A DNA stretch of 64,000 nt, taken from Deltaproteobacteria bacterium (GTDB lineage: Bacteria > Desulfobacterota > DSM-4660 > Desulfatiglandales > Desulfatiglandaceae). The position numbers and the translations under genes were made by a program. Location of the stretch: positions 1 to 64,000 of the forward strand of contig JAIPDI010000002.1 of the NCBI GenBank assembly GCA_021737785.1. The letters run 5' to 3'. Positions 48,485-59,951 of this stretch are shown here, piece after piece. The notes under the pieces were generated by a model. It was given only the letters and a program-made list of their open reading frames with translations, was not told the origin of the DNA and did no database searches. Positions within the stretch are counted from its first letter, which is position 1. Each line of letters opens with the position of its first letter.

Positions 48485-49414
48485 ATGCTCAGAATAGGGA
48501 CACGGGGAAGCAGGTTAGCGCTTAAACAGAGTGAATGGGTCAAGGCCCAACTGGAGGCCAGATACCCTGAAATCGGTGTGGAGCTTGTCAAGATCAAGAC
48601 CACCGGGGATAAGGTCCTTGATTCCCCCCTTAGCAAGATCGGGGGCAAGGGCCTTTTTGTGAAAGAGATCGAGGATGCCATGCTGGAAAGGCGGGTCGAT
48701 CTGGCGGTTCACAGCATGAAGGATGTGCCTGCGGAACTCCCCGACAATCTCTATCTTTCGACCTATCCGGAACGTGAAGACCCTTCGGATGCGCTTATCT
48801 CCGTTGACGACCTTCCCCTTGACCGGCTTCCCCCCAATGCCAAGGTAGGGACGAGCAGTCTCAGGCGGGGGGCCCAATTGCTCCATATCCGGCCGGACCT
48901 CGACCTGGTGCCCCTGAGGGGTAACGTGGACACCCGCCTTCGGAAAGTTGAATCCGGAGAACTCCATGCCGTTATCCTGGCGTGCGCCGGTCTCAAACGG
49001 CTCGGACTGGCAGACCGGATCAGCCAGGTCATTCCACAGGATCAACTCCTGCCTGCCGTAGGGCAGGGGGCCCTCGGGCTGGAGATAAGGCGGGATGATG
49101 CCGGGCTTGCTGATATTCTCAGTTTTCTGGACCATGGGCCGACCCGCATGACGGTCAGCGCCGAAAGGGCCTTTCTGAAAAAACTCGAGGGGGGGTGCCA
49201 GGTTCCCATCGCCGGTTTTGCCCGGTTGGACGGGGACCGCCTCTCCTTCAAGGGCATGGTGGCGGAACTGGACGGGACGAGGCTTTTCAGGGAAGAGACG
49301 GCCGGGCCAAAAGATCAGGCCGAGGCCATCGGGATTGCCTGCGCCAGGAACCTCCTCGCCTCAGGGGCGGACAAGGTGCTGGAGAAGATTTACGGGTCGG
49401 CAATGGATGCGTGA
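48485..49414 (+). CDS. hemC: Hydroxymethylbilane synthase (porphobilinogen deaminase)
   Basis: Polymerises four porphobilinogens. LRIGTRGSRLALKQSEWVK starts the protein; SPLSKIGGKGLFVKEIEDAML, DLAVHSMKDVPAELP, GTSSLRRGAQLL and RGNVDTRLRKVESGE form the active site; the dipyrromethane cofactor Cys lies in LEGGCQVPIAGFA. The 309 residues are normal. The ATG at 48485 has GGCGGAGG 4 nt upstream. Its stop lies at the first units of a heptamer repeat array. Confidence 0.97.
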   Translation: MLRIGTRGSRLALKQSEWVKAQLEARYPEIGVELVKIKTTGDKVLDSPLSKIGGKGLFVKEIEDAMLERRVDLAVHSMKDVPAELPDNLYLSTYPEREDPSDALISVDDLPLDRLPPNAKVGTSSLRRGAQLLHIRPDLDLVPLRGNVDTRLRKVESGELHAVILACAGLKRLGLADRISQVIPQDQLLPAVGQGALGLEIRRDDAGLADILSFLDHGPTRMTVSAERAFLKKLEGGCQVPIAGFARLDGDRLSFKGMVAELDGTRLFREETAGPKDQAEAIGIACARNLLASGADKVLEKIYGSAMDA

Positions 49415-49482
49415 TACTGAATACTGGATACTGGATGCTGGATACTGGATGCTCGATACTGGATACTGGATACTGGATGCTG
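49413..49482. repeat. Tandem array of ten 7-bp units
   Basis: Ten consecutive units of GATACTG or close variants (AATACTG, GATGCTG, GATGCTC). The first unit starts inside the hemC stop codon (49412-49414). The array is followed, before cobA-hemD, by AACCCAATTAACCCAATAAACCC-type direct repeats at about 49560-49590. Confidence 0.9.
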
Positions 49483-49606
49483 GTTGTAGCGTAGCGGAAA
49501 TCCCGTCTTCAGCGGGAATGCTGGACTGGATGCCTGGCAGCCCACGAACCCGACACACAAACCCAATTAACCCAATAAACCCGACAAACCGTCACAAGGA
49601 CACGCC

Positions 49607-51172: not shown

Positions 51173-51479
51173 CGACTTAGCAAAGGTTCTAACTGTACAG
51201 TCCAAAGTTCTTGGAACAGTTAGAATCACTCGATTCCGGCTTTAATTGTCGCCGTTCCGGCGAAACCCGGAATCCAGAATACTTTCGGCATGATAAGGCT
51301 CTGGATGCCGGTCGAAGATCCCGTACTTGCGGGGAGCGAGTCCAGCATGACGGAAGAACTTTGGACTTTCAAGTACCTAAGCACTATATTGAAATTACAG
51401 GAACCAGCCAAGCCCCGATTTTCTTGACACTGATCGGCTCGAAAACCTTATTCAGAGCCTTTTTCAACAGAAGTTGCGC
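51173..51479. other. Repeat-bearing intergenic region
   Basis: No gene. A GATTCCGGC...GTTCCGGCGAAACCCGGAATCCAG repeat (about 51233-51278) belongs to the same family as those around the GIY-YIG unit, and CTTTGGACTT/AAGTCC-like short inverted sequence flanks it (51200 and 51357). From here the AT content rises. Confidence 0.5.
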
Positions 51480-52090
51480 ATGCATTTCCGAAATTTTTCG
51501 AGACTCGCTTTAGCGATCATATTCATCTTTCTTACTGTCAAAACGGTTAATACCATGCAACCGCCACCACCGCCACTGGATTTTCAGATGTTGAGCCATC
51601 TCGTCACGCAGGCAGATATAATCGTTGTCGGAAAAGTTGTCCACGTTAAGAAAATGGACAAGATAAACGGAACTGAACAAAAAATAACGTCCGAGGCGGT
51701 TGTGAATATTGAAGAAATATTGAAAGGAAGTTTCTCCGACCCTACAATTGTTATCACGGAAAGCTATTCTGCGTCTGACCAAAAAAAAATGCGCCAACAA
51801 GAGAGCCTCGCGATCATTCCAGGTCTATTGCCTCTTTTACGGCCGGCCCAAGCTCCTATCACGGCACATATAACCAAGGCGATCGATTAATTTTTTTACT
51901 TGAAAAACTAAGAGAAACGGGTATGTATAAGCCGTTAGGCTCGGGAACATATGATGAGCATCTATGCGCATTCCCTATAGAGAATGATCGTGTTTACCCC
52001 CTGCATTTCAGATTTGCGGCTGATGTAGCAGAATATGCAACACCTAAAAAGAAATTTTTGGATTTAATCAGGAGATCATCGGGGCATTGA
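51480..52090 (+). pseudogene. Exported protein gene interrupted by a frameshift at an A9 run
   Basis: A signal peptide (NFSRLALAIIFIFLTVKTVNT) starts a protein with PPPPPLDFQMLSHLVTQADIIVVGKVVHVKK. After the nine A residues at about 51781-51789 the frame continues only 37 codons, to a stop at 51890. In the next frame, the same region continues smoothly through GTYNQGDRLIFLLEKLRETG and KPLGSGTYDEHLCAFPIEND to a TGA at 52088, about 100 residues, with no other start. Adding one A would restore a single 200-residue protein. Decay, slippage in expression, or a sequencing error can each explain it. The family is unknown. Confidence 0.75.
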
Positions 52091-52113
52091 AATTTTCTAG
52101 GGTGAGGTAAGAA

Positions 52114-53376
52114 ATGGACAAGACGTTAAGAAAAGGCATCTGGTGGACTGTTGTATCCTTGTCAACGATTTTTGCTTTTATTGCCCCTACTTCTGCAATC
52201 GGCGCGGACGCCACACAAATACCCATAAACCAATACGGCATCCGCTCGTCAAATCCTTATGTGGTAAACCGGTTTGTCAAGAACGGAAAAACAATTGACG
52301 AGATAATTGTCCCGAGTCGACCGAATCCGCCGAAAGGGTTCAGCTCTCAGATCGCCGCAGTTCCCGAACCCCACCCTGCAGCTGGAACCAATACCATTGC
52401 CAATGTCCCTGCTATGACCTGGTGCTTTGGATGCTCAGCCACTTCTGCCGCCATGATGTTCGGGCATTATGACAACGTCGGATATTCAAATATGTACGCC
52501 GGGCCTGTGAATGGCGGGGTATTTCCCATGACAAACGCAACGTGGGGTACCGTTGTAATTAACGGTGAAACAAGGGCTCTATGCCCACTCAGTGCCACAC
52601 GTCTGGGTCTGGATGGTCGAGCGACAAAAGGTCACGTTGATGATTACTGGATAAGATATGAAAATTCAGATGCCGATCCTTTTATCGGCAATTGGACGGA
52701 ACATACTTATGGTGAATGTACCGGGGATTATATGGGAACCAACCAATCTTCGCTCTCGAACACTGATGGTTCGACCAGATTCTACTATTACACTGATGGC
52801 AGTCCTTTGTATAATTATACAGGATGTGAACCAGGAAGGCGTGACGGTTGCCACGGTATGCGTGATTTTGTCGAATCGAGGGGCTATACTGTAAGCACGA
52901 ATTTTTCCCAGTACATTTACGGTTACAATGGTAACGCAACGGGCTTTACTTTTGACAACTTCAAAACCGAAATTGATAACGGTCGTCCTGTTCTGATACA
53001 GGTTCAAGGCCATACCATGCTAGGGTATGGATACAACGATACAGGACAGACCATCTATATCCATGATACCTGGGACTACAGCGACCACTCAATGAGCTGG
53101 GGAGGCTACTATGGGGGAATGCTTCATTATGGTGTGGGTGTGATCCGGCTTGATCCTGCCCCCGACTCCTGTCCCGATTGCCCTGCCGACGGCATAATTA
53201 CCAATGCGACATATGTTTCAGGCACCACCTGCTCGTGCACCAATGCCATATCCATTACCTTAGGCAGCAACGTAACCGTTGAAAACGGAGCTACCGTAAC
53301 CTTTACGGCACCGACCATAACCGTGCAACCCGGCTTTCGTGCGCATACGGGGGCGGTGGTCAACATGCAGCAGTAA
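52114..53376 (+). CDS. Secreted C39-like cysteine peptidase with C-terminal sorting-like module
   Basis: A 420-residue exported protein. Signal peptide: about 1-30 (ends TSAIGA). The peptidase C39_2-like domain begins near MTWCFGCSATSAAMMFGHYD (candidate catalytic Cys C104 or C107), has the His in VQGHTMLGYGYND, and the acidic residue in YIHDTWDYSDHS. Residues about 350-420 form a module starting CPDCPADGIITNATY and rich in beta strands (NVTVENGATVTFTAP, TVQPGFRAHTGAVV). GAGGTAAGAA precedes the ATG. Two more proteins in the next 7 kb have the same module. Confidence 0.85.
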   Translation: MDKTLRKGIWWTVVSLSTIFAFIAPTSAIGADATQIPINQYGIRSSNPYVVNRFVKNGKTIDEIIVPSRPNPPKGFSSQIAAVPEPHPAAGTNTIANVPAMTWCFGCSATSAAMMFGHYDNVGYSNMYAGPVNGGVFPMTNATWGTVVINGETRALCPLSATRLGLDGRATKGHVDDYWIRYENSDADPFIGNWTEHTYGECTGDYMGTNQSSLSNTDGSTRFYYYTDGSPLYNYTGCEPGRRDGCHGMRDFVESRGYTVSTNFSQYIYGYNGNATGFTFDNFKTEIDNGRPVLIQVQGHTMLGYGYNDTGQTIYIHDTWDYSDHSMSWGGYYGGMLHYGVGVIRLDPAPDSCPDCPADGIITNATYVSGTTCSCTNAISITLGSNVTVENGATVTFTAPTITVQPGFRAHTGAVVNMQQ

Positions 53377-53448
53377 AAGATTTGAACCTGTCTTACTTGC
53401 CGCCTCATGCACAGGTGAGGCGGCATAGGCATCCCAAGCTGACCTGTC

Positions 53449-53823
53449 ATGTATAAATTATCCCTTATTTTCCTGATCGTTTCATTTAGTGCTTCTGCAC
53501 CTGTGTCGGTTAAGCTGGCCGAAAAGGATCTGGGCCGCACCGTGGAATTGGGCATTGGAGAAACATTGGAAGTTGAGCTGAGGGGTAATCCGACAACCGG
53601 TTATGTCTGGGATATTGCCTCCCTTGATATGAAAATCCTGAAACAAATTGGGGAGACAGAGTTCACGCCGGATAGGAAAGGTCGGGGCGTTGGTGGTAAA
53701 GTAATTATGCGTTTCAAGGCTCAAGGGGCCGGGGAAACTCTCCTGAAATTGATCTACCACAGGCGATTTGAAAAAGAAAGGCCCCCGACCAAGACATTTG
53801 AAGCAACAATAATAGTCAAATAA
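53449..53823 (+). CDS. Chagasin-type cysteine peptidase inhibitor (I42 family)
   Basis: A 124-residue exported protein. A short signal peptide (YKLSLIFLIVSFSASA) is followed by an immunoglobulin-like inhibitor domain. The I42 landmark loops are visible: RGNPTTGYVWDI (the NPTTG-Y-x-W BC loop), KGRGVGGKVIMRFKAQGAGETLLKL (GxG and the R/K-F-K-A segment) and YHRRFEKERPPTKTFEATI (the RxWE-like FG loop). Such inhibitors block papain-family peptidases. It lies between two secreted cysteine peptidases; the following gene is one of them, starting 14 nt later. Confidence 0.92.
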   Translation: MYKLSLIFLIVSFSASAPVSVKLAEKDLGRTVELGIGETLEVELRGNPTTGYVWDIASLDMKILKQIGETEFTPDRKGRGVGGKVIMRFKAQGAGETLLKLIYHRRFEKERPPTKTFEATIIVK

Positions 53824-53837
53824 AAGTGTGTGACCTG

Positions 53838-55586
53838 ATGAAAATGTATAAAAAAATCTTGCTCCTGCTGATGGTGGTGATCCCGTTTTCATTTTTCCTC
53901 CAGGGTTCCTCCTCAGCCGAACGCACGGATATATTGCGGTTTGGAGCAGAAGATACACTTGAGCAGATCAGGGCCAAGATCAAGCAAAATGGATACAAAT
54001 TTACCGTGGACCATAACTGGGTCTTTGATATGTCGCCTGAACAAAAGAAAAAATTCCTCAGCAGGCGACCGCCGAGTTTCCCCAGATCTGTGGAAACCGT
54101 TGAAGATATGGGACCCTTGGCGGAGCACATCGGCCAAAGTGCGCTCCCTTCTTCTTTTGACTGGAGAGACTACAATGGCCGCTCATATATCGGCCCTGTC
54201 CGGAATCAGGGCGACTGCGGCGACTGCTACGCCTTCGGGGCCTGTGCCGCGGCAGAAGGAACCTACAACTGGGCCAATGGCAAATATGACGCCAACTGCG
54301 CCGATTTCTCGGAAGCCTTTGTGGCCTTCTGTCTATCGGATCATTATTCCGGTTTCGATGGCTGCGATGGGGCGGATTATGATTATGAGGAACTTGACGC
54401 CCTGGTTGATTACGGGGTGTGCAATGAGAATGTTTATCCATACGAGGATTATGAGCAACCCTGTCAATCATCCGCCTGGGCTGCCCCACGCACCACGTTC
54501 CATTCCTGGCACCGCATCAAGTGCAACGATATTGAGGCCATCAAGACCGCCATCATGACCTATGGTGTCGTCGATGCTGCCGTGTACGTGGGAAGCGCTT
54601 TTGAGGCGTATATGGGGGGCGAGGGCCCTTACGAGGATACGAACACCTCTTGCGAGGGCTACTACCCAGACGACCCCTGTTTTTACGCAATCACCAACCA
54701 TGGGGTTGCCCTGGTGGGGTGGGATGATAATAACGGCGAAGGGTACTGGATTTTACGGAACAGCTGGGGCACGAACTGGGGGGAAGGCGGCTACATGCGG
54801 ATCAAGTACACCTCCGCAAATGTCGCCTGCGCGGTCGCTTATCTCACTATTGGCGGGGGTCCCTCCCCCACCCTTCAATACTCTTGGAACATGGATACCA
54901 ACCCCGGATGGACCACCCAGGGTCTGTGGGCCTGGGGCACCCCCACCGGAGGCGGCGGCGAAGAGGGAGGAAATCCAGACCCGACCAGCGGTTACACCGG
55001 CAACAATGTGTATGGCTACAACCTCGCGGGTGACTATGAGAATAGTCTTGCTGAAAGACACCTTACCAGCACTGCTATTAACTGTTCGGGCCTGTCCAAT
55101 GTCTCCTTGAAGTTCCGTCGCTGGCTGGGAGTGGAAAATTATCTGTATGACCATGCCTATGTGCGTGTCAGCAACAACGGAACCACATGGACCACATTTT
55201 GGCGAAATACCGCCGAGGTGGCGGATTCTTCCTGGGTGTTGCAGGATTTCGATATCTCCAGCGTGGCCGATGGTCAGTCCACGGTTTATCTGCGGTGGAC
55301 CATGGGAATCACCGACGGATCATTGCGATATTGTGGCTGGAACATCGACGACGTGGAAATCTGGGGGGTGGAGTCGGCATGTCCCGATTGCCCTTCCGAT
55401 GGGGTGATTACCAATGCGACATATCGCGCAGGCACCACCTGCGCATGTTCCAATGCTTCATCCATTACCTTAGGCGCCAACGTAACCGTTGAAAACGGCG
55501 CTGCCGTCACATTTACGGCGCCGACCATAACGGTTCAACCCGGCTTTCGTGCGGAAAGCGGGGCCGTGGTTAAAATGCAGCAGTAA
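53838..55586 (+). CDS. Secreted papain-family (C1A) cysteine peptidase with jelly-roll and C-terminal module
   Basis: A 582-residue exported protein. A signal peptide (KILLLLMVVIPFSFFL) and a propeptide-like region (to about 100) precede the catalytic domain: SSFDWRDYNGRSYIGPVRNQ, GDCGDCYAFGACAAAEG (nucleophile Cys), ITNHGVALVGW (His) and ILRNSWGTNWGEGG (Asn). A beta-rich domain of about 170 residues follows (YSWNMDTNPGWTTQGLWAW to NIDDVEIWGV), of MAM/CUB jelly-roll character, then the CPDCPSDGVITNATY module. The oxyanion Gln and CGxC-type site are intact. It probably needs the I42 inhibitor encoded just upstream. Confidence 0.93.
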   Translation: MKMYKKILLLLMVVIPFSFFLQGSSSAERTDILRFGAEDTLEQIRAKIKQNGYKFTVDHNWVFDMSPEQKKKFLSRRPPSFPRSVETVEDMGPLAEHIGQSALPSSFDWRDYNGRSYIGPVRNQGDCGDCYAFGACAAAEGTYNWANGKYDANCADFSEAFVAFCLSDHYSGFDGCDGADYDYEELDALVDYGVCNENVYPYEDYEQPCQSSAWAAPRTTFHSWHRIKCNDIEAIKTAIMTYGVVDAAVYVGSAFEAYMGGEGPYEDTNTSCEGYYPDDPCFYAITNHGVALVGWDDNNGEGYWILRNSWGTNWGEGGYMRIKYTSANVACAVAYLTIGGGPSPTLQYSWNMDTNPGWTTQGLWAWGTPTGGGGEEGGNPDPTSGYTGNNVYGYNLAGDYENSLAERHLTSTAINCSGLSNVSLKFRRWLGVENYLYDHAYVRVSNNGTTWTTFWRNTAEVADSSWVLQDFDISSVADGQSTVYLRWTMGITDGSLRYCGWNIDDVEIWGVESACPDCPSDGVITNATYRAGTTCACSNASSITLGANVTVENGAAVTFTAPTITVQPGFRAESGAVVKMQQ

Positions 55587-55603
55587 AAGATTTTAACCCC
55601 GCC

Positions 55604-55850
55604 CTATCCGCCGGTATAGACCACGGCCTTGAGATAGCGTTTATAGGTCTTTCCCTCAGGTGATCGCTCCTTAAGCCAATCCCATTGAATTACGCCCCAC
55701 GCGGAGACGGGAAGGTTCTCTCTGGGGTTTTTGTTTTTCCCCGAGTCATAAAAATCCGTGAGAGTGGTTTCCAAGCCACGATTCACGGCTAACCGTCGCG
55801 GCTGAAAGCGATCCCACAGGGAGGTATAGAAGGCCGGTTGTCCTACATCC
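55604..55850 (-). pseudogene. Possible C-terminal gene remnant
   Basis: A minus-strand frame open from about 55850 to a stop at 55604 reads ...PAFYTSLWDRFQPRRLAVNR, then TTLTDFYDSGKNKNPRENLP, VSAWGVIQWDWLKERSPEGK and on to VVYTGG. It has no start codon and ribosome binding site at its beginning and overlaps the end of the S74 gene. A plausible, well-composed C-terminus without an N-terminus suggests a leftover gene end. I do not recognise it. Confidence 0.35.
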
Positions 55851-57033
55851 CCAACACCGCCTTGATCTGCTGAATTTCGCTTTTCAGTGCCTCGTTTTCC
55901 GCCTTCAGCTCCTTGACCGCATTGACCAACGCCACATTGACCGGGTGCATATTGAAATCGAGATAACCGTCCGGCCCTTCGCTGACCGCCTCTGGAAACA
56001 CCTCCTGCACTTCCTGGGCGATGAAGCCGATATATTCATCATCAGTGGGAAGGCCCTTTGGATTGTCTTCCTTGTAGCGGAACATAATCGGCCTTAGCCC
56101 CAAAACGGCATCAAGACCACGACTGTATTCCCCGGTAATGTCCTTAAGCCTTGCGTCGGAATAGACAGACCAGACCCCTCCCCCCACCTTGGCTGCAGTA
56201 CCGTTGACCGCCAGTTTGAATCCGCCGGGATTCGTGGTGCCGATGCCTACGTTACCCGACGGGTCGATGTTCAATCGGGGCTGATTGGCCGTATCATCAT
56301 AAATCTGAAACAGGCCTGGGCCGCCGATATTGGATGACAGCGTGCTCCCAACATAATACTGCCGCCCTCCTGTTCCTCCGGTGCTGTCCAGAAGAACGGC
56401 CGCCCCGAGGTCGCTCGCCCTTTCGCGGATATGGAGCTTTTCCACCGGTGCGGACGTGCCGATGCCGACTTTGCCTGCCGTGCCTCCAGGGAAGATCAAA
56501 AAGGCATTAGGAGTGGAGATCTCCTGTGGGTTGTTGTACTCCGCATAACCCCAGACAAAGGTGTGGTCTGCGGCAGTGGTCAATTGCATATATTGGCCGC
56601 CGGCCCACGAGAAGTCGCCGTCGGCGTGATTGGATTTGCCCCCGCTGACAGCGGCGCATTCTCCCCTGGCCTCGTTGCCGCACCCCCCGGCCACCACGGC
56701 ACAATCACCAAGGGCCTCGTTGGTGCAGCCGCCCGCCACCGTGCCGCACTGCCTGCCGGCCCAGTTGCCCCAGCCGCCCCCCACGGTGCAGTGGGCCATG
56801 GCCTCCTGTGAATTGTTCTCTCCGGTGATGCAATACTGTCCGAGATTGATGTGGGTGCCGGTTGAGGGGCCGAAAACATATGCGGTGCTGGATTGATAGA
56901 CTTCAGCTTTTACGTTGTCGGGACTGATGATGACCTGTTCTGCGAGAGCCGCCTGGCAAAGAGCAATACAGCTTAAAAACACGGAGAACAACATAATCTG
57001 ACGCCACGAAACGACCCCGATCTGATTCTTCAT
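55843..57033 (-). CDS. Surface protein with YadA-like head repeats and S74 intramolecular chaperone
   Basis: A 396-residue exported protein. A signal peptide (about 1-32, ending CQAALA) leads to head-type repeats with a period near 14 (NNSQEAMAHCTVGGGWGNWA, CTNEALGDCAVVAGG, CGNEARGECAAVSGG), similar to trimeric adhesin heads but with many Cys. About 290-396 is the peptidase S74 chaperone: DARLKDITGEYSRGLDAVLGL, DDEYIGFIAQEVQEVFPEAV, and a final coil (VNAVKELKAENEALKSEIQQI). S74 domains cleave themselves off after trimer folding. AAGGGAGAC lies upstream. Such proteins are phage tail-fibre relatives and also occur as cell-surface proteins. Confidence 0.88.
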   Translation of the reverse strand: MKNQIGVVSWRQIMLFSVFLSCIALCQAALAEQVIISPDNVKAEVYQSSTAYVFGPSTGTHINLGQYCITGENNSQEAMAHCTVGGGWGNWAGRQCGTVAGGCTNEALGDCAVVAGGCGNEARGECAAVSGGKSNHADGDFSWAGGQYMQLTTAADHTFVWGYAEYNNPQEISTPNAFLIFPGGTAGKVGIGTSAPVEKLHIRERASDLGAAVLLDSTGGTGGRQYYVGSTLSSNIGGPGLFQIYDDTANQPRLNIDPSGNVGIGTTNPGGFKLAVNGTAAKVGGGVWSVYSDARLKDITGEYSRGLDAVLGLRPIMFRYKEDNPKGLPTDDEYIGFIAQEVQEVFPEAVSEGPDGYLDFNMHPVNVALVNAVKELKAENEALKSEIQQIKAVLGM

Positions 57034-57251
57034 TGCCTGTCTCCCTTTTCCCTTGGAATACGTTAACTGTTTTGCACGAGCCGGTTCTCACACGACGGAG
57101 TATATACAAATCTCAGCGGACTTTGCGCCTTGAATGGCCACGCCAAGACGTGGGAATGGGCGGTTGCGGAAATATAATGCGGAGCTGTGTTTAAGAAGAG
57201 AATGGCTTAGCCGTTTTTACTCGGGCGCTGTTTAGGTGCACATGCCCTCTT

Positions 57252-57578
57252 TCAGCCAATGAGCCTGCTTAACAAAATGTCCTCGATATTTCGTCTGCCA
57301 TCCAAAACAGATAAAACATAGACCTTCATGCCTTCTATTCTGAACATGACTCTCCACGGGGACACGATCAACTCCCGGTAATGCAAAATGCCGTGGTCTT
57401 TAAGCTCTGGAACGATTCGGCACCCTTCGGGCATGGTATAGAGGCTGGATGCCTCCTCTTTGATTTTTGTCGAAATCGTTAAGGCGTTTGCCGTACTGTC
57501 CGCTGTGATATAGTCGACGATTTCCCTCAAATTGTCCTCCGCGCGGCGCGCCCATACAATTTCACAGTGTCGGGTCAT
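57252..57578 (-). CDS. ParE/RelE-type toxin, without visible antitoxin
   Basis: A 108-residue basic protein of the RelE/ParE fold: IVWARRAEDNLREIVDYITAD at the N-terminus, EGCRIVPELKDHGILHYREL in the middle, and PWRVMFRIEGMKVYVLSVLDGRRNIEDIL at the end (in parts) match ParE toxins. ATG at 57578 is chosen; an in-frame extension to 57629 runs into the gene upstream. The usual antitoxin gene would precede it on this strand; instead there is the end of a truncated surface-protein gene (57592-57747). Confidence 0.85.
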   Translation of the reverse strand: MTRHCEIVWARRAEDNLREIVDYITADSTANALTISTKIKEEASSLYTMPEGCRIVPELKDHGILHYRELIVSPWRVMFRIEGMKVYVLSVLDGRRNIEDILLSRLIG

Positions 57579-57591
57579 TAACGCTTGCCCT

Positions 57592-57747
57592 TCAGCCCAT
57601 GGCAGTGGAATTTGGCCCGGTGGCTTCACACCCCTGCCCGATGGCTGCTGTTGTTTGGGTAATGCTCGCTGTCAGTGCCTGACAGGGAAGGCAGATCCAA
57701 CCGACCAGAACCAATAACCGTATCATCGACATGAACCGCTTCATCAT
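57592..57747 (-). CDS. Truncated exported head-repeat protein
   Basis: 51 residues from ATG at 57747, which has AAGGAGGAAAGAA directly upstream. A good signal peptide (RFMSMIRLLVLVGWICLPCQ) is followed by TASITQTTAAIGQGCEATGP, then NSTAMG, one unit of a YadA-type head repeat, and then a stop. It looks like the start of a second surface protein like the one at 55843 that has lost its body. The ParE-like gene follows 13 nt downstream. Confidence 0.55.
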   Translation of the reverse strand: MMKRFMSMIRLLVLVGWICLPCQALTASITQTTAAIGQGCEATGPNSTAMG

Positions 57748-57846
57748 TTCTTTCCTCCTTGATTGTGTGCATAGTGCAAATAGTTTCATCATAGCAGGTG
57801 GTTCAGGATGCCATGGGGCGCTATGACAAAAACCATCAGACAGAGC

Positions 57847-59874
57847 TTATTCCTGCTGGATGGTCACCTCGGAACCGGTTTCGAAGGTTGCCCCGCTTTT
57901 GACGTATACCCGCGGGGCCTTAAACACGGCTTTGGCCCCGGATTGGATAGTCACGTCAGGGCCAATGGTGATTGATGTGGTGGCCGTGCATTCACAGTCG
58001 GTGCCTGGAGGATAGTCTTCACCTTGGATGGTGACAGGATCACCGACACATCCAGGACATGGTGTCGGCGAGATTGAATAATGAAGGATTGTCCCGCCTA
58101 TTCCAACAGCGAAGACATCTGTATTGGACCGGCCCCAGACGCTTTCCAGCTGGTTGGCGCTCCCGCTTTCCATCGCGGTCCATGAGGCCCCGTTGTAGTG
58201 GAAGATCCTCGGGGTGATGCTCACCACAAAGACGTCATTTGCCGAGCTGCCCCAAACGCCTGAAAAATGATCCGTTGTTCCAAGACTGATGCGGTTCCAT
58301 GAACTGCCGTTGTAGTGGAGAACCAATGCGCCGTCAGAATGGTTGTTGTAATCTATCCCCACCACATAGACGTCGCTCCCCGAGCTGCCCCATACGTCTC
58401 GAAAATCACAGTCTTCGCGACTCGTTACCTGTGTCCATGAGCTGCCGTTATAATGGAGGATGACCCCTCCTCCATATCCACCCGGGTTGTTACCCACGGC
58501 GAACACATTGTTTGAAGACGAGCCCCAGACGCTGTTGAGTTGTTTGTTTACGCCGTTATGCATCGCTGCCCATGAACTGCCGTCATAACGGAGAATCAAT
58601 GCTGTTCCCGCGGCAGAGTCATAACCCACGGCAAAGACGTTGGTGTCGGCGCTGCCCCATACGCTCATTAGCTGGCCGGTTGTTCCGCTCGTCATCTGGG
58701 TCCATGAATTGCCGTCATAGCGACGAATCGTGCCGCTGTTGCCCACTGCAAAGACATTGTTTCCCGCACTACCCCATACGCCCAAAAGATTCTGGGTGGT
58801 TCCGCTGGTCATGGAGGTCCATGAACCGCCGGTACACCGGAGGATTGTTCCGTCCCAACCCACGGCAAACATATCGGATCCCGGCGTTCCCCAAACGTCT
58901 ATGAGAAAGTCCGTTGATCCCCTCCGCATCGGGATACAAAAGATGTCGCCGCAGCCGACAATTTCTCCGTATTCCCCGACGGCCATAAAACCATTCGTTT
59001 CCCCGCTGCCCCAGATGCCGTACAGATTATCTGATGAGGGTAGACTCATCTGGGTCCATGAACCGCCGTCCCAGCGGAGGACATCTCCGCCATCGATCAG
59101 GGCAAAGACATTGTCCGAAGAAGTGCCCCAAATACCGTACAGATTACTATTTGTTCCGGTATTCACCTGGGTCCATGAAGTGCCGTTATAGTGGAGCATA
59201 TATCCTCCTAATACGGAACCCCCCACAGCATACACATCGTCATCTGAACTCCCCCATACGCCCACGAGGGGGGAGGCAATGGATATTCCGGTATCCACCT
59301 CCGACCATGAACTGCCGTTGTAACGGAAAACCGATCCAGCGTGGCCCACTGCATAAACATCGTTGGCTGAACTTCCCCAGACATCGAAAAGTCCAAGGGA
59401 TGTTCCACTCGTCATCTTTGTCCACGAACTGCCGTTATAGTTCAGAATAGTGCCATATTCACCCACTGCAAATATATTGTCAGAGGAAGTTCCCCATATT
59501 CCATCAAGATGATAGATGGTTCCAGCGCTCATCTGGGACCATGAAGTGCCGTTGAAGCGGAGAATGATCCCGTTCGTAACGCCGTCTCCACCCACTGCAT
59601 AGACATTGGTTGCAGAAGTGCCCCAGACGCCATAGAGATCTGTAGTTGTTCCACTGGCCATGGAGGACCATGAACTGCCGTTGTACCGGAGGATGGTTCC
59701 GTGATCCCCCACGGCAAAGACATTGTTTGTCGCGCTGCCCCAAACCCCGCGCAGGGTGTTCCCTTGTGGCAGGGGATTCTGCCACTCCCAGGCAGCCTCG
59801 GCCGCATTGGGAAGAATAAATTGGACACTCCAAAGCCATGAAAATACGACAAACAGAATTCTTAAGCCTCCCAC
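57847..59874 (-). CDS. Secreted beta-propeller-like repeat protein with C-terminal module
   Basis: About 675 residues. The GTG at 59874 is chosen: GGAGG lies 7 nt upstream and it gives a clean signal peptide (GGLRILFVVFSWLWSVQFIL, cleaved after AEA); the ORF itself extends to an ATG at 59922. The body consists of about 13 units of 45 residues with the pattern VWGSS.NNVFAVG..GTILHYNG.SWTQM, expected to form beta-propeller blades. The last 70 residues (CPGCVGDPVTIQGEDYPPGT, DCECTATTSITIGPDVTIQS) are a diverged copy of the module in the C39 and C1A peptidases. Adhesion or polymer binding is possible; function is unknown. Confidence 0.88.
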   Translation of the reverse strand: MGGLRILFVVFSWLWSVQFILPNAAEAAWEWQNPLPQGNTLRGVWGSATNNVFAVGDHGTILRYNGSSWSSMASGTTTDLYGVWGTSATNVYAVGGDGVTNGIILRFNGTSWSQMSAGTIYHLDGIWGTSSDNIFAVGEYGTILNYNGSSWTKMTSGTSLGLFDVWGSSANDVYAVGHAGSVFRYNGSSWSEVDTGISIASPLVGVWGSSDDDVYAVGGSVLGGYMLHYNGTSWTQVNTGTNSNLYGIWGTSSDNVFALIDGGDVLRWDGGSWTQMSLPSSDNLYGIWGSGETNGFMAVGEYGEIVGCGDIFCIPMRRGSTDFLIDVWGTPGSDMFAVGWDGTILRCTGGSWTSMTSGTTQNLLGVWGSAGNNVFAVGNSGTIRRYDGNSWTQMTSGTTGQLMSVWGSADTNVFAVGYDSAAGTALILRYDGSSWAAMHNGVNKQLNSVWGSSSNNVFAVGNNPGGYGGGVILHYNGSSWTQVTSREDCDFRDVWGSSGSDVYVVGIDYNNHSDGALVLHYNGSSWNRISLGTTDHFSGVWGSSANDVFVVSITPRIFHYNGASWTAMESGSANQLESVWGRSNTDVFAVGIGGTILHYSISPTPCPGCVGDPVTIQGEDYPPGTDCECTATTSITIGPDVTIQSGAKAVFKAPRVYVKSGATFETGSEVTIQQE

Positions 59875-59951
59875 CTGGCGTCCTCCATTGTTGTAAGAGT
59901 GAGATAGGAACAAATAATTCATATTTCCGCTTGGAATTTCCAGAAGGCCTT

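Follow-up and report, generated by a model that had tools for sequence, protein, structure and literature searches.

We examined a 64,000-nucleotide stretch (hereafter the window) of contig JAIPDI010000002.1, which belongs to a draft Deltaproteobacteria genome (GCA_021737785.1; 5.33 Mb in 96 contigs, 100% complete, 3.1% contamination). Within it, three neighbouring genes code for a C39-like cysteine peptidase, an I42 (chagasin-family) cysteine peptidase inhibitor and a C1A papain-family peptidase (Table 1). An initial annotation of the locus had described the three as adjacent, in one orientation and all exported. The open reading frames (ORFs), the Pfam matches and the signal peptides agree with this description: each protein starts with a Sec-type signal peptide, judged by eye, and all three lack a lipobox. 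The inhibitor gene does stand directly before the gene for the papain-like enzyme, with 14 nt between the I42 stop codon and the C1A ATG. We consider it probable that the C1A peptidase has its dedicated inhibitor in the I42 protein encoded just before it, which would act during export, and that the C39-like peptidase forms a parallel cassette with the product of a small upstream gene, 'up'.

The I42 family is defined by the loops NPTTG, GxGG and RPW/F (PMC2607524). The window inhibitor matches the family profile and keeps all three loops, as NPTTGY, GVGG and RRF; the third, RPW in chagasin, has the R-x-F form and fits the RPW/F motif except for the middle proline. Its relatives in the PDB are ICP and chagasin structures (best 9.5e-12). 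The protein was thus correctly placed in a family that inhibits C1 peptidases, and from this membership it would be expected to act as a tight and reversible inhibitor of C1A enzymes. The peptidase has the catalytic residues of the papain family in its C1 domain, with the Gln/Cys, His and Asn motifs intact (QGDCGDCYAF, NHGVALVGW and RNSWG). Residues Q98, C104, H262 and N282 (aligned-fragment numbering) are invariant across the alignment of C1A homologues, and the PDB relatives are cathepsin and papain structures. The protein is composed of a short pro-region, the catalytic domain (residues 103-345), a MAM/choice-of-anchor-J-like domain and a C-terminal tail module; the matches to choice_anch_J (1.3e-5) and GCX_COOH (1.6e-5) are each slightly below cut-off.

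To place this pair in a wider context, we counted the occurrence and linkage of I42 and C1 domains in 395 genomes drawn evenly from the phylum, taking an I42 locus as linked when a C1A domain lay at most 2 kb away. I42 is found in 59 genomes and C1 in 104; 27 genomes have both, and the presence of the two is correlated (odds ratio 2.8, p 4e-4). Linkage was found at 15 of the 69 I42 loci, and 11 of the 27 genomes with both domains carry them close together, against 0.07 expected under random placement. In every linked genome but one (G304, where the genes converge), I42 is on the same strand and immediately upstream of C1. Where the two genes are separate, the gap from I42 stop to C1 start is mostly 5-33 nt, reaching about 100-130 nt in loci L103 and L166. 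The initial annotation would have called the link coincidental if homologous peptidases never occurred near I42 elsewhere; the pair recurs in other genomes and also occurs as fusions. Judged from these sequences, the adjacency of I42 and C1A is not coincidental.

Orthologous pairs are present in a genome of the same family (G396, locus L097; I42 about 65% and C1A 67-80% identical) and in Deltaproteobacteria AB_03_Bin_182 (L115; about 61% and 65-72%), with more distant relatives in G397 (L103) and G429 (L102). A genome of the same genus (G349) probably holds the same pair divided by an assembly break, its I42 gene being cut by a contig end (82% identity over 72 residues) and its C1 gene entering the start of another contig (72%). 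The flanking genes differ among the window, G349, G396 and L115; it is therefore the pair itself that is conserved and not the neighbourhood. An alignment scan of genome contigs with C1 returned 80 C1A loci. The 11 linked to I42 comprise two separate pairs (L115, L166), six fusions (L151, L156, L169, L187, L190, L192) and L155, L165 and L177; these last three are the loci of G113, G301 and G142 again. Sequence identities among the I42 proteins track those among the C1A proteins (correlation of the identity matrices, r 0.64, p 0.002). Some linked I42 proteins (L067, L068, L165, L166, L187) carry a lipobox, absent from the window protein, and would therefore remain on the producing cell.

In a number of relatives, inhibitor and enzyme are parts of a single chain. 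Eight fused ORFs occur in six genomes of the phylum (two each in G142 and G113, one each in G301, G324, G073 and G156), with I42 N-terminal of C1. Further fusions were found in Chloroflexota or Anaerolineae (L151, L169, L187, L190, L192) and in Contendobacter (L156), so that the architecture extends over Desulfobacterota, Chloroflexota and one gammaproteobacterium. The fused I42 domains retain their loops, with NPSTGY or variants of it and, in 8 of 10, RPW. A linker of roughly 40-60 residues, longer in L192, leads from I42 to the mature start LPxxFxW. Directly upstream of one fusion lies a gene for a stand-alone protein with a lipobox-like signal, an N-domain and I42 (L165:3471-4187), which, by its matching N-terminal layout, appears to be a detached copy of the front part of the neighbouring fusion.

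We modelled one natural fusion (L151, 445 residues) with AlphaFold2 from an alignment of 44 rows, leaving out stand-alone I42 rows. The model has a mean pLDDT of 85.7 and a pTM of 0.84. Since this pTM is reached despite about 75 poorly ordered residues, the I42 half seems to be placed confidently against the C1 half. We compared the model with the PDB through the ends of the alignment ranges and the pTM. Mature papains align from residue about 221, and the proenzymes 3tnx, 7pck, 3qj3, 6czk, 1xkg, 4qrx, 5ef4 and 8zlq from residue 98-100. The NPSTGY loop occupies residues 100-105 and therefore appears superposed on the stretch of the propeptide that crosses the cleft. In solved complexes, chagasin binds where the propeptide crosses the substrate cleft. 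The model is thus consistent with an inhibitor loop that sits at the propeptide crossing of the papain cleft.

The C39-like peptidase belongs to a rare family (13 of the 395 genomes) in which the motifs GCS, GHT and HDTW are conserved. It matches only the broad PF13529 (C39_2) profile and has a signal peptide and no transporter, unlike bacteriocin-processing C39 peptidases, and is therefore termed C39-like only. An AlphaFold model from a two-row alignment reached a pLDDT of 36.9 overall, too low to confirm a C39-like fold, and 72-88 in the tail. A second copy in the same genome (G000:C34, L104) is 62% identical. Directly upstream of this copy, and of the C39-like gene at G278:C95 (L201), are intact 'up' homologues that code for secreted proteins of 218-252 residues. 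In the window, the 'up' profile matches in two frames, 51462-51782 (profile positions 18-122) and 51779-52075 (positions 123-221), and the reading frame shifts near 51780, at an A9 run. A sequencing error could account for this shift, as could a slippage site or decay. The 395 genomes hold only three copies of 'up', each immediately preceding a C39-like gene. A further copy (L117) follows a C1A gene by 116 nt, at a contig end. Searches of Pfam, NCBIfam and the PDB gave no significant relative. The best reading of this arrangement is that 'up' and the C39-like gene form a second cassette parallel to I42-C1A. Between the two cassettes lies a hairpin of -22.4 kcal/mol (z = -5.7), and they may therefore be expressed unequally. 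Scans of the region for sigma-70 promoters and terminators scored no better than shuffles.

The initial annotation had proposed to look for a conserved order of peptidase, inhibitor and peptidase. The I42-C1A part of that order recurs as described above, but the full order C39-I42-C1A was seen in the window only, not at the other loci surveyed. The link to the C39-like enzyme instead comes from protein architecture. In one genome (L123:2887-5484; G168:C186), a single ORF of 866 residues joins a C1A domain 56% identical to that of the window and a C39-like domain (3e-77 to the window protein), with an SdrD_B-like domain in between; the remaining genomes with C39-like genes have no C1 gene near them. 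In the window, the two peptidases end in tail modules of 68 residues that are 82% identical in protein, and at the DNA level the similarity is confined to the tail and a short stretch beyond the stop codon. Against GCX_COOH (NF045639) the tails score 24.8 and 24.6 bits, with a cut-off of 26, and P0005 gave no score. The C39-like copy at C34 and the C1A protein of G396 share, by eye, another, fibronectin-like end. Because tails are common to C39-like and C1A proteins, we read these C-terminal modules as interchangeable and as directing both peptidase types to one destination.

Other proteins of this genome carry the tail as well. The propeller protein at 57847-59922 (-) has a diverged copy, and two further carriers are located at L073:6161-8305 (G000:C40) and L074:5816-8269 (G000:C1), one with a gingipain-type propeptide (PF08126 1.2e-12) and the other with DUF7948 and SBBP propeller repeats. 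It may be that this tail labels a group of secreted proteins.

Taken together, we propose that the I42 and C1A proteins would both be exported via Sec, with the inhibitor made first and coupled to its enzyme. In the periplasm, the three I42 loops would block the papain-like active site, and the mature C1A peptidase would thereby be kept from damaging envelope proteins before its passage to the exterior. The genome has a type II secretion system, of which GspD was identified. Once outside, the C1A peptidase would act at a place determined by its C-terminal tail module, and the C39-like peptidase of the parallel cassette, which bears the same tail, would be directed there too. More tentatively, the two cassettes may be alike in principle: the bacterial chagasin domain would be a papain pro-domain, built in or detached, that blocks the cleft in cis in the fusions and has its two-gene version in the window pair, and 'up' would likewise be a partner of the C39-like peptidase, perhaps an inhibitor. 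That both halves of this joint proposal hold is possible but somewhat doubtful.

Four observations weigh against a dedicated inhibitor. Among the 59 I42-bearing genomes, 32 are without any C1A, so the I42 family has other jobs too. A linked I42 gene accompanies only 11 of the 80 C1A homologues, so the enzyme can manage without the inhibitor. The window enzyme also has an ordinary short pro-region of its own. Finally, the I42 protein of L103 resembles the window type and its C1A does not, so partners are exchangeable.

The first of these observations would suit an inhibitor aimed outward, which guards the cell against papain-like proteases made by protists, hosts or other bacteria, and stands beside C1A merely as a fellow secreted-protein gene. 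Known bacterial proteins point the same way: Cip1, a chagasin of Pseudomonas syringae, inhibits tomato proteases in a genus where most genomes are without C1A (PMC5014320), and an I42 protein of Legionella is secreted by type II secretion (PMC12239567). However, a foreign target would not lead one to expect the recurrent upstream placement, the short gaps, the orthologous pairs in unrelated neighbourhoods or the repeated fusions, and we regard an outward role as unlikely here. We attach similarly little weight to the view that I42 is in effect a detached propeptide whose main task is to help folding or to chaperone secretion, not to regulate activity. The fusions do place I42 between the N-terminal region and the mature catalytic start, the usual position of a propeptide, and Spi of SpeB has been described as a propeptide analogue (PMC2873492). 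Yet the window enzyme retains its own pro-region, many C1A homologues are without I42 and the inhibitory loops are retained, although chaperone and inhibitor roles are not exclusive. Chance neighbourhood of the four secreted-protein genes could draw on the uniqueness of the three-gene order and on the hairpin and differing G+C ('up' 0.42, C39-like 0.49, I42 0.46, C1A 0.54), which suggest that parts of the region have histories of their own, but is highly improbable given the 11 genomes with adjacent genes, the natural C1A-C39 fusion and the tails common to both peptidases.

A dedicated, export-stage inhibitor of the adjacent C1A peptidase therefore remains our favoured reading, and it does not extend to the genes on the opposite strand. 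The initial annotation had counted surface-type proteins and a toxin gene among the parts of the island, but nothing ties the S74, ParE-like and propeller genes to it; their membership in the peptidase unit is not supported, beyond the tail relative on the propeller protein. The toxin gene, which is the ParE-like ORF, was rejected as a member of the system, being on the opposite strand and showing no linked recurrence, and no recognisable antitoxin lies beside it. The island may serve in predation, competition or matrix remodelling, as the initial annotation suggested, but the sequences speak neither for nor against such a role. Upstream of the ParE-like ORF, ORF 57592-57792 resembles the remaining N-terminal part of a secreted protein like the one at 55843-57033. 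The S74 chaperone domain is common on phage tail spikes; here it is found in a chromosomal cluster of secreted-protein genes. PADLOC returned zero matches for the four proteins submitted, and a plasmid search gave only distant C1 peptidases, none with 80% query coverage. Elsewhere in the window, a short near-repeat of type TACTGGATGCTGGAT (ORF text GYWMLDTGYWILD) lies in the 49361-49558 region, between hemC and a uroporphyrinogen methyltransferase/synthase gene.

Table 1. Genes and other features of the peptidase locus, with positions in the window.
Feature	Position	Strand	Basis
'up', small secreted protein gene of an undescribed family, split by a frameshift	51474..52093	+	profile match in two frames
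Exported C39-like (papain-fold clan) cysteine peptidase with C-terminal tail module (P0001)	52114..53376	+	PF13529 1.4e-7, above cut-off
Tail module of the C39-like peptidase, 68 residues, 3-coathanger/GCX_COOH-like	53170..53373	+	82% protein identity to C1A tail
Strong RNA hairpin between the cassettes	53398..53425	+	inverted repeat, 10-nt perfect arms, no T run
Exported I42/chagasin-family cysteine peptidase inhibitor (P0002)	53449..53823	+	PF09394 3.2e-21
Exported C1A papain-family peptidase (P0003)	53838..55586	+	PF00112 2.6e-39
Tail module of the C1A peptidase, same as the C39-like one	55380..55583	+	protein and DNA similarity
Secreted protein ending in S74 intramolecular chaperone domain	55843-57033	-	PF13884 2.3e-14
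ParE-like ORF	57252-57629	-	PF05016 1.3e-13
Propeller-like repeat protein	57847-59922	-	repeats 'VWGSS..DVFAVG...ILHYNGSSW'

Co-encoded pairs of a cysteine peptidase and its inhibitor are known from SpeB-Spi, staphopain-staphostatin and Bacteroides Bfp-Bfi (PMC2873492). As in the first two, a secreted papain-fold peptidase is found in the window beside a small inhibitor, and the contiguity of the two genes is conserved between genomes, as in pairs of the staphopain/staphostatin kind. Those pairs are co-transcribed, their inhibitors are specific, and they are thought to protect the producer (PMC2873492); by analogy, the window genes would be co-transcribed and the inhibitor specific for its partner. 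The known pairs differ in using C47 and C10 peptidases with inhibitors that are lipocalin-like or a propeptide analogue, whereas the pair described here joins a C1A enzyme with a chagasin-family inhibitor, both exported, and relatives have single-chain fusions. The Bfp-Bfi system of Bacteroides fragilis is likewise Gram-negative, with Bfi genes within 35 bp of the peptidase and products predicted to be periplasmic or membrane-bound (PMC2873492), but it relies on C10 peptidases and staphostatin-like inhibitors. The protozoan ICPs, including chagasin with its target cruzipain, share with the window protein the I42 family, the three loops and a C1A target from the same organism (PMC2607524); protozoan chagasins lack a signal peptide (PMC5014320), whereas the window inhibitor is an exported protein whose gene adjoins that of its presumed target. 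Cip1 is, like the window protein, a bacterial exported chagasin-like inhibitor and inhibits papain; unlike it, Cip1 targets plant proteases, in a genus where a C1A enzyme is mostly absent (PMC5014320).

Co-encoded peptidase-inhibitor pairs, and protozoan chagasins that restrain their own C1A enzymes, are thus already known, and what we describe is a variant built from a bacterial C1A peptidase and a chagasin. A literature search, with subscription papers and Pfam architecture tables outside its scope, found no description of I42-C1A pairs or fusions in bacteria, although the latter may already be catalogued somewhere. In 2016 the role of bacterial chagasins was described as not elucidated, and foreign targets were argued for since many carriers are without C1A (PMC5014320). 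Gene pairs and natural fusions argue for an endogenous C1A target in at least one class of bacterial chagasins. The pairs and fusions name that specific target, which can be assayed directly and offers a way to test the role of the bacterial inhibitor. The 'up' family, found beside C39-like peptidases, is a candidate for a new inhibitor family. The fusions also suggest that a propeptide can be replaced by an inhibitor fold; this would illustrate cleanly how zymogens and trans-acting inhibitors interconvert.

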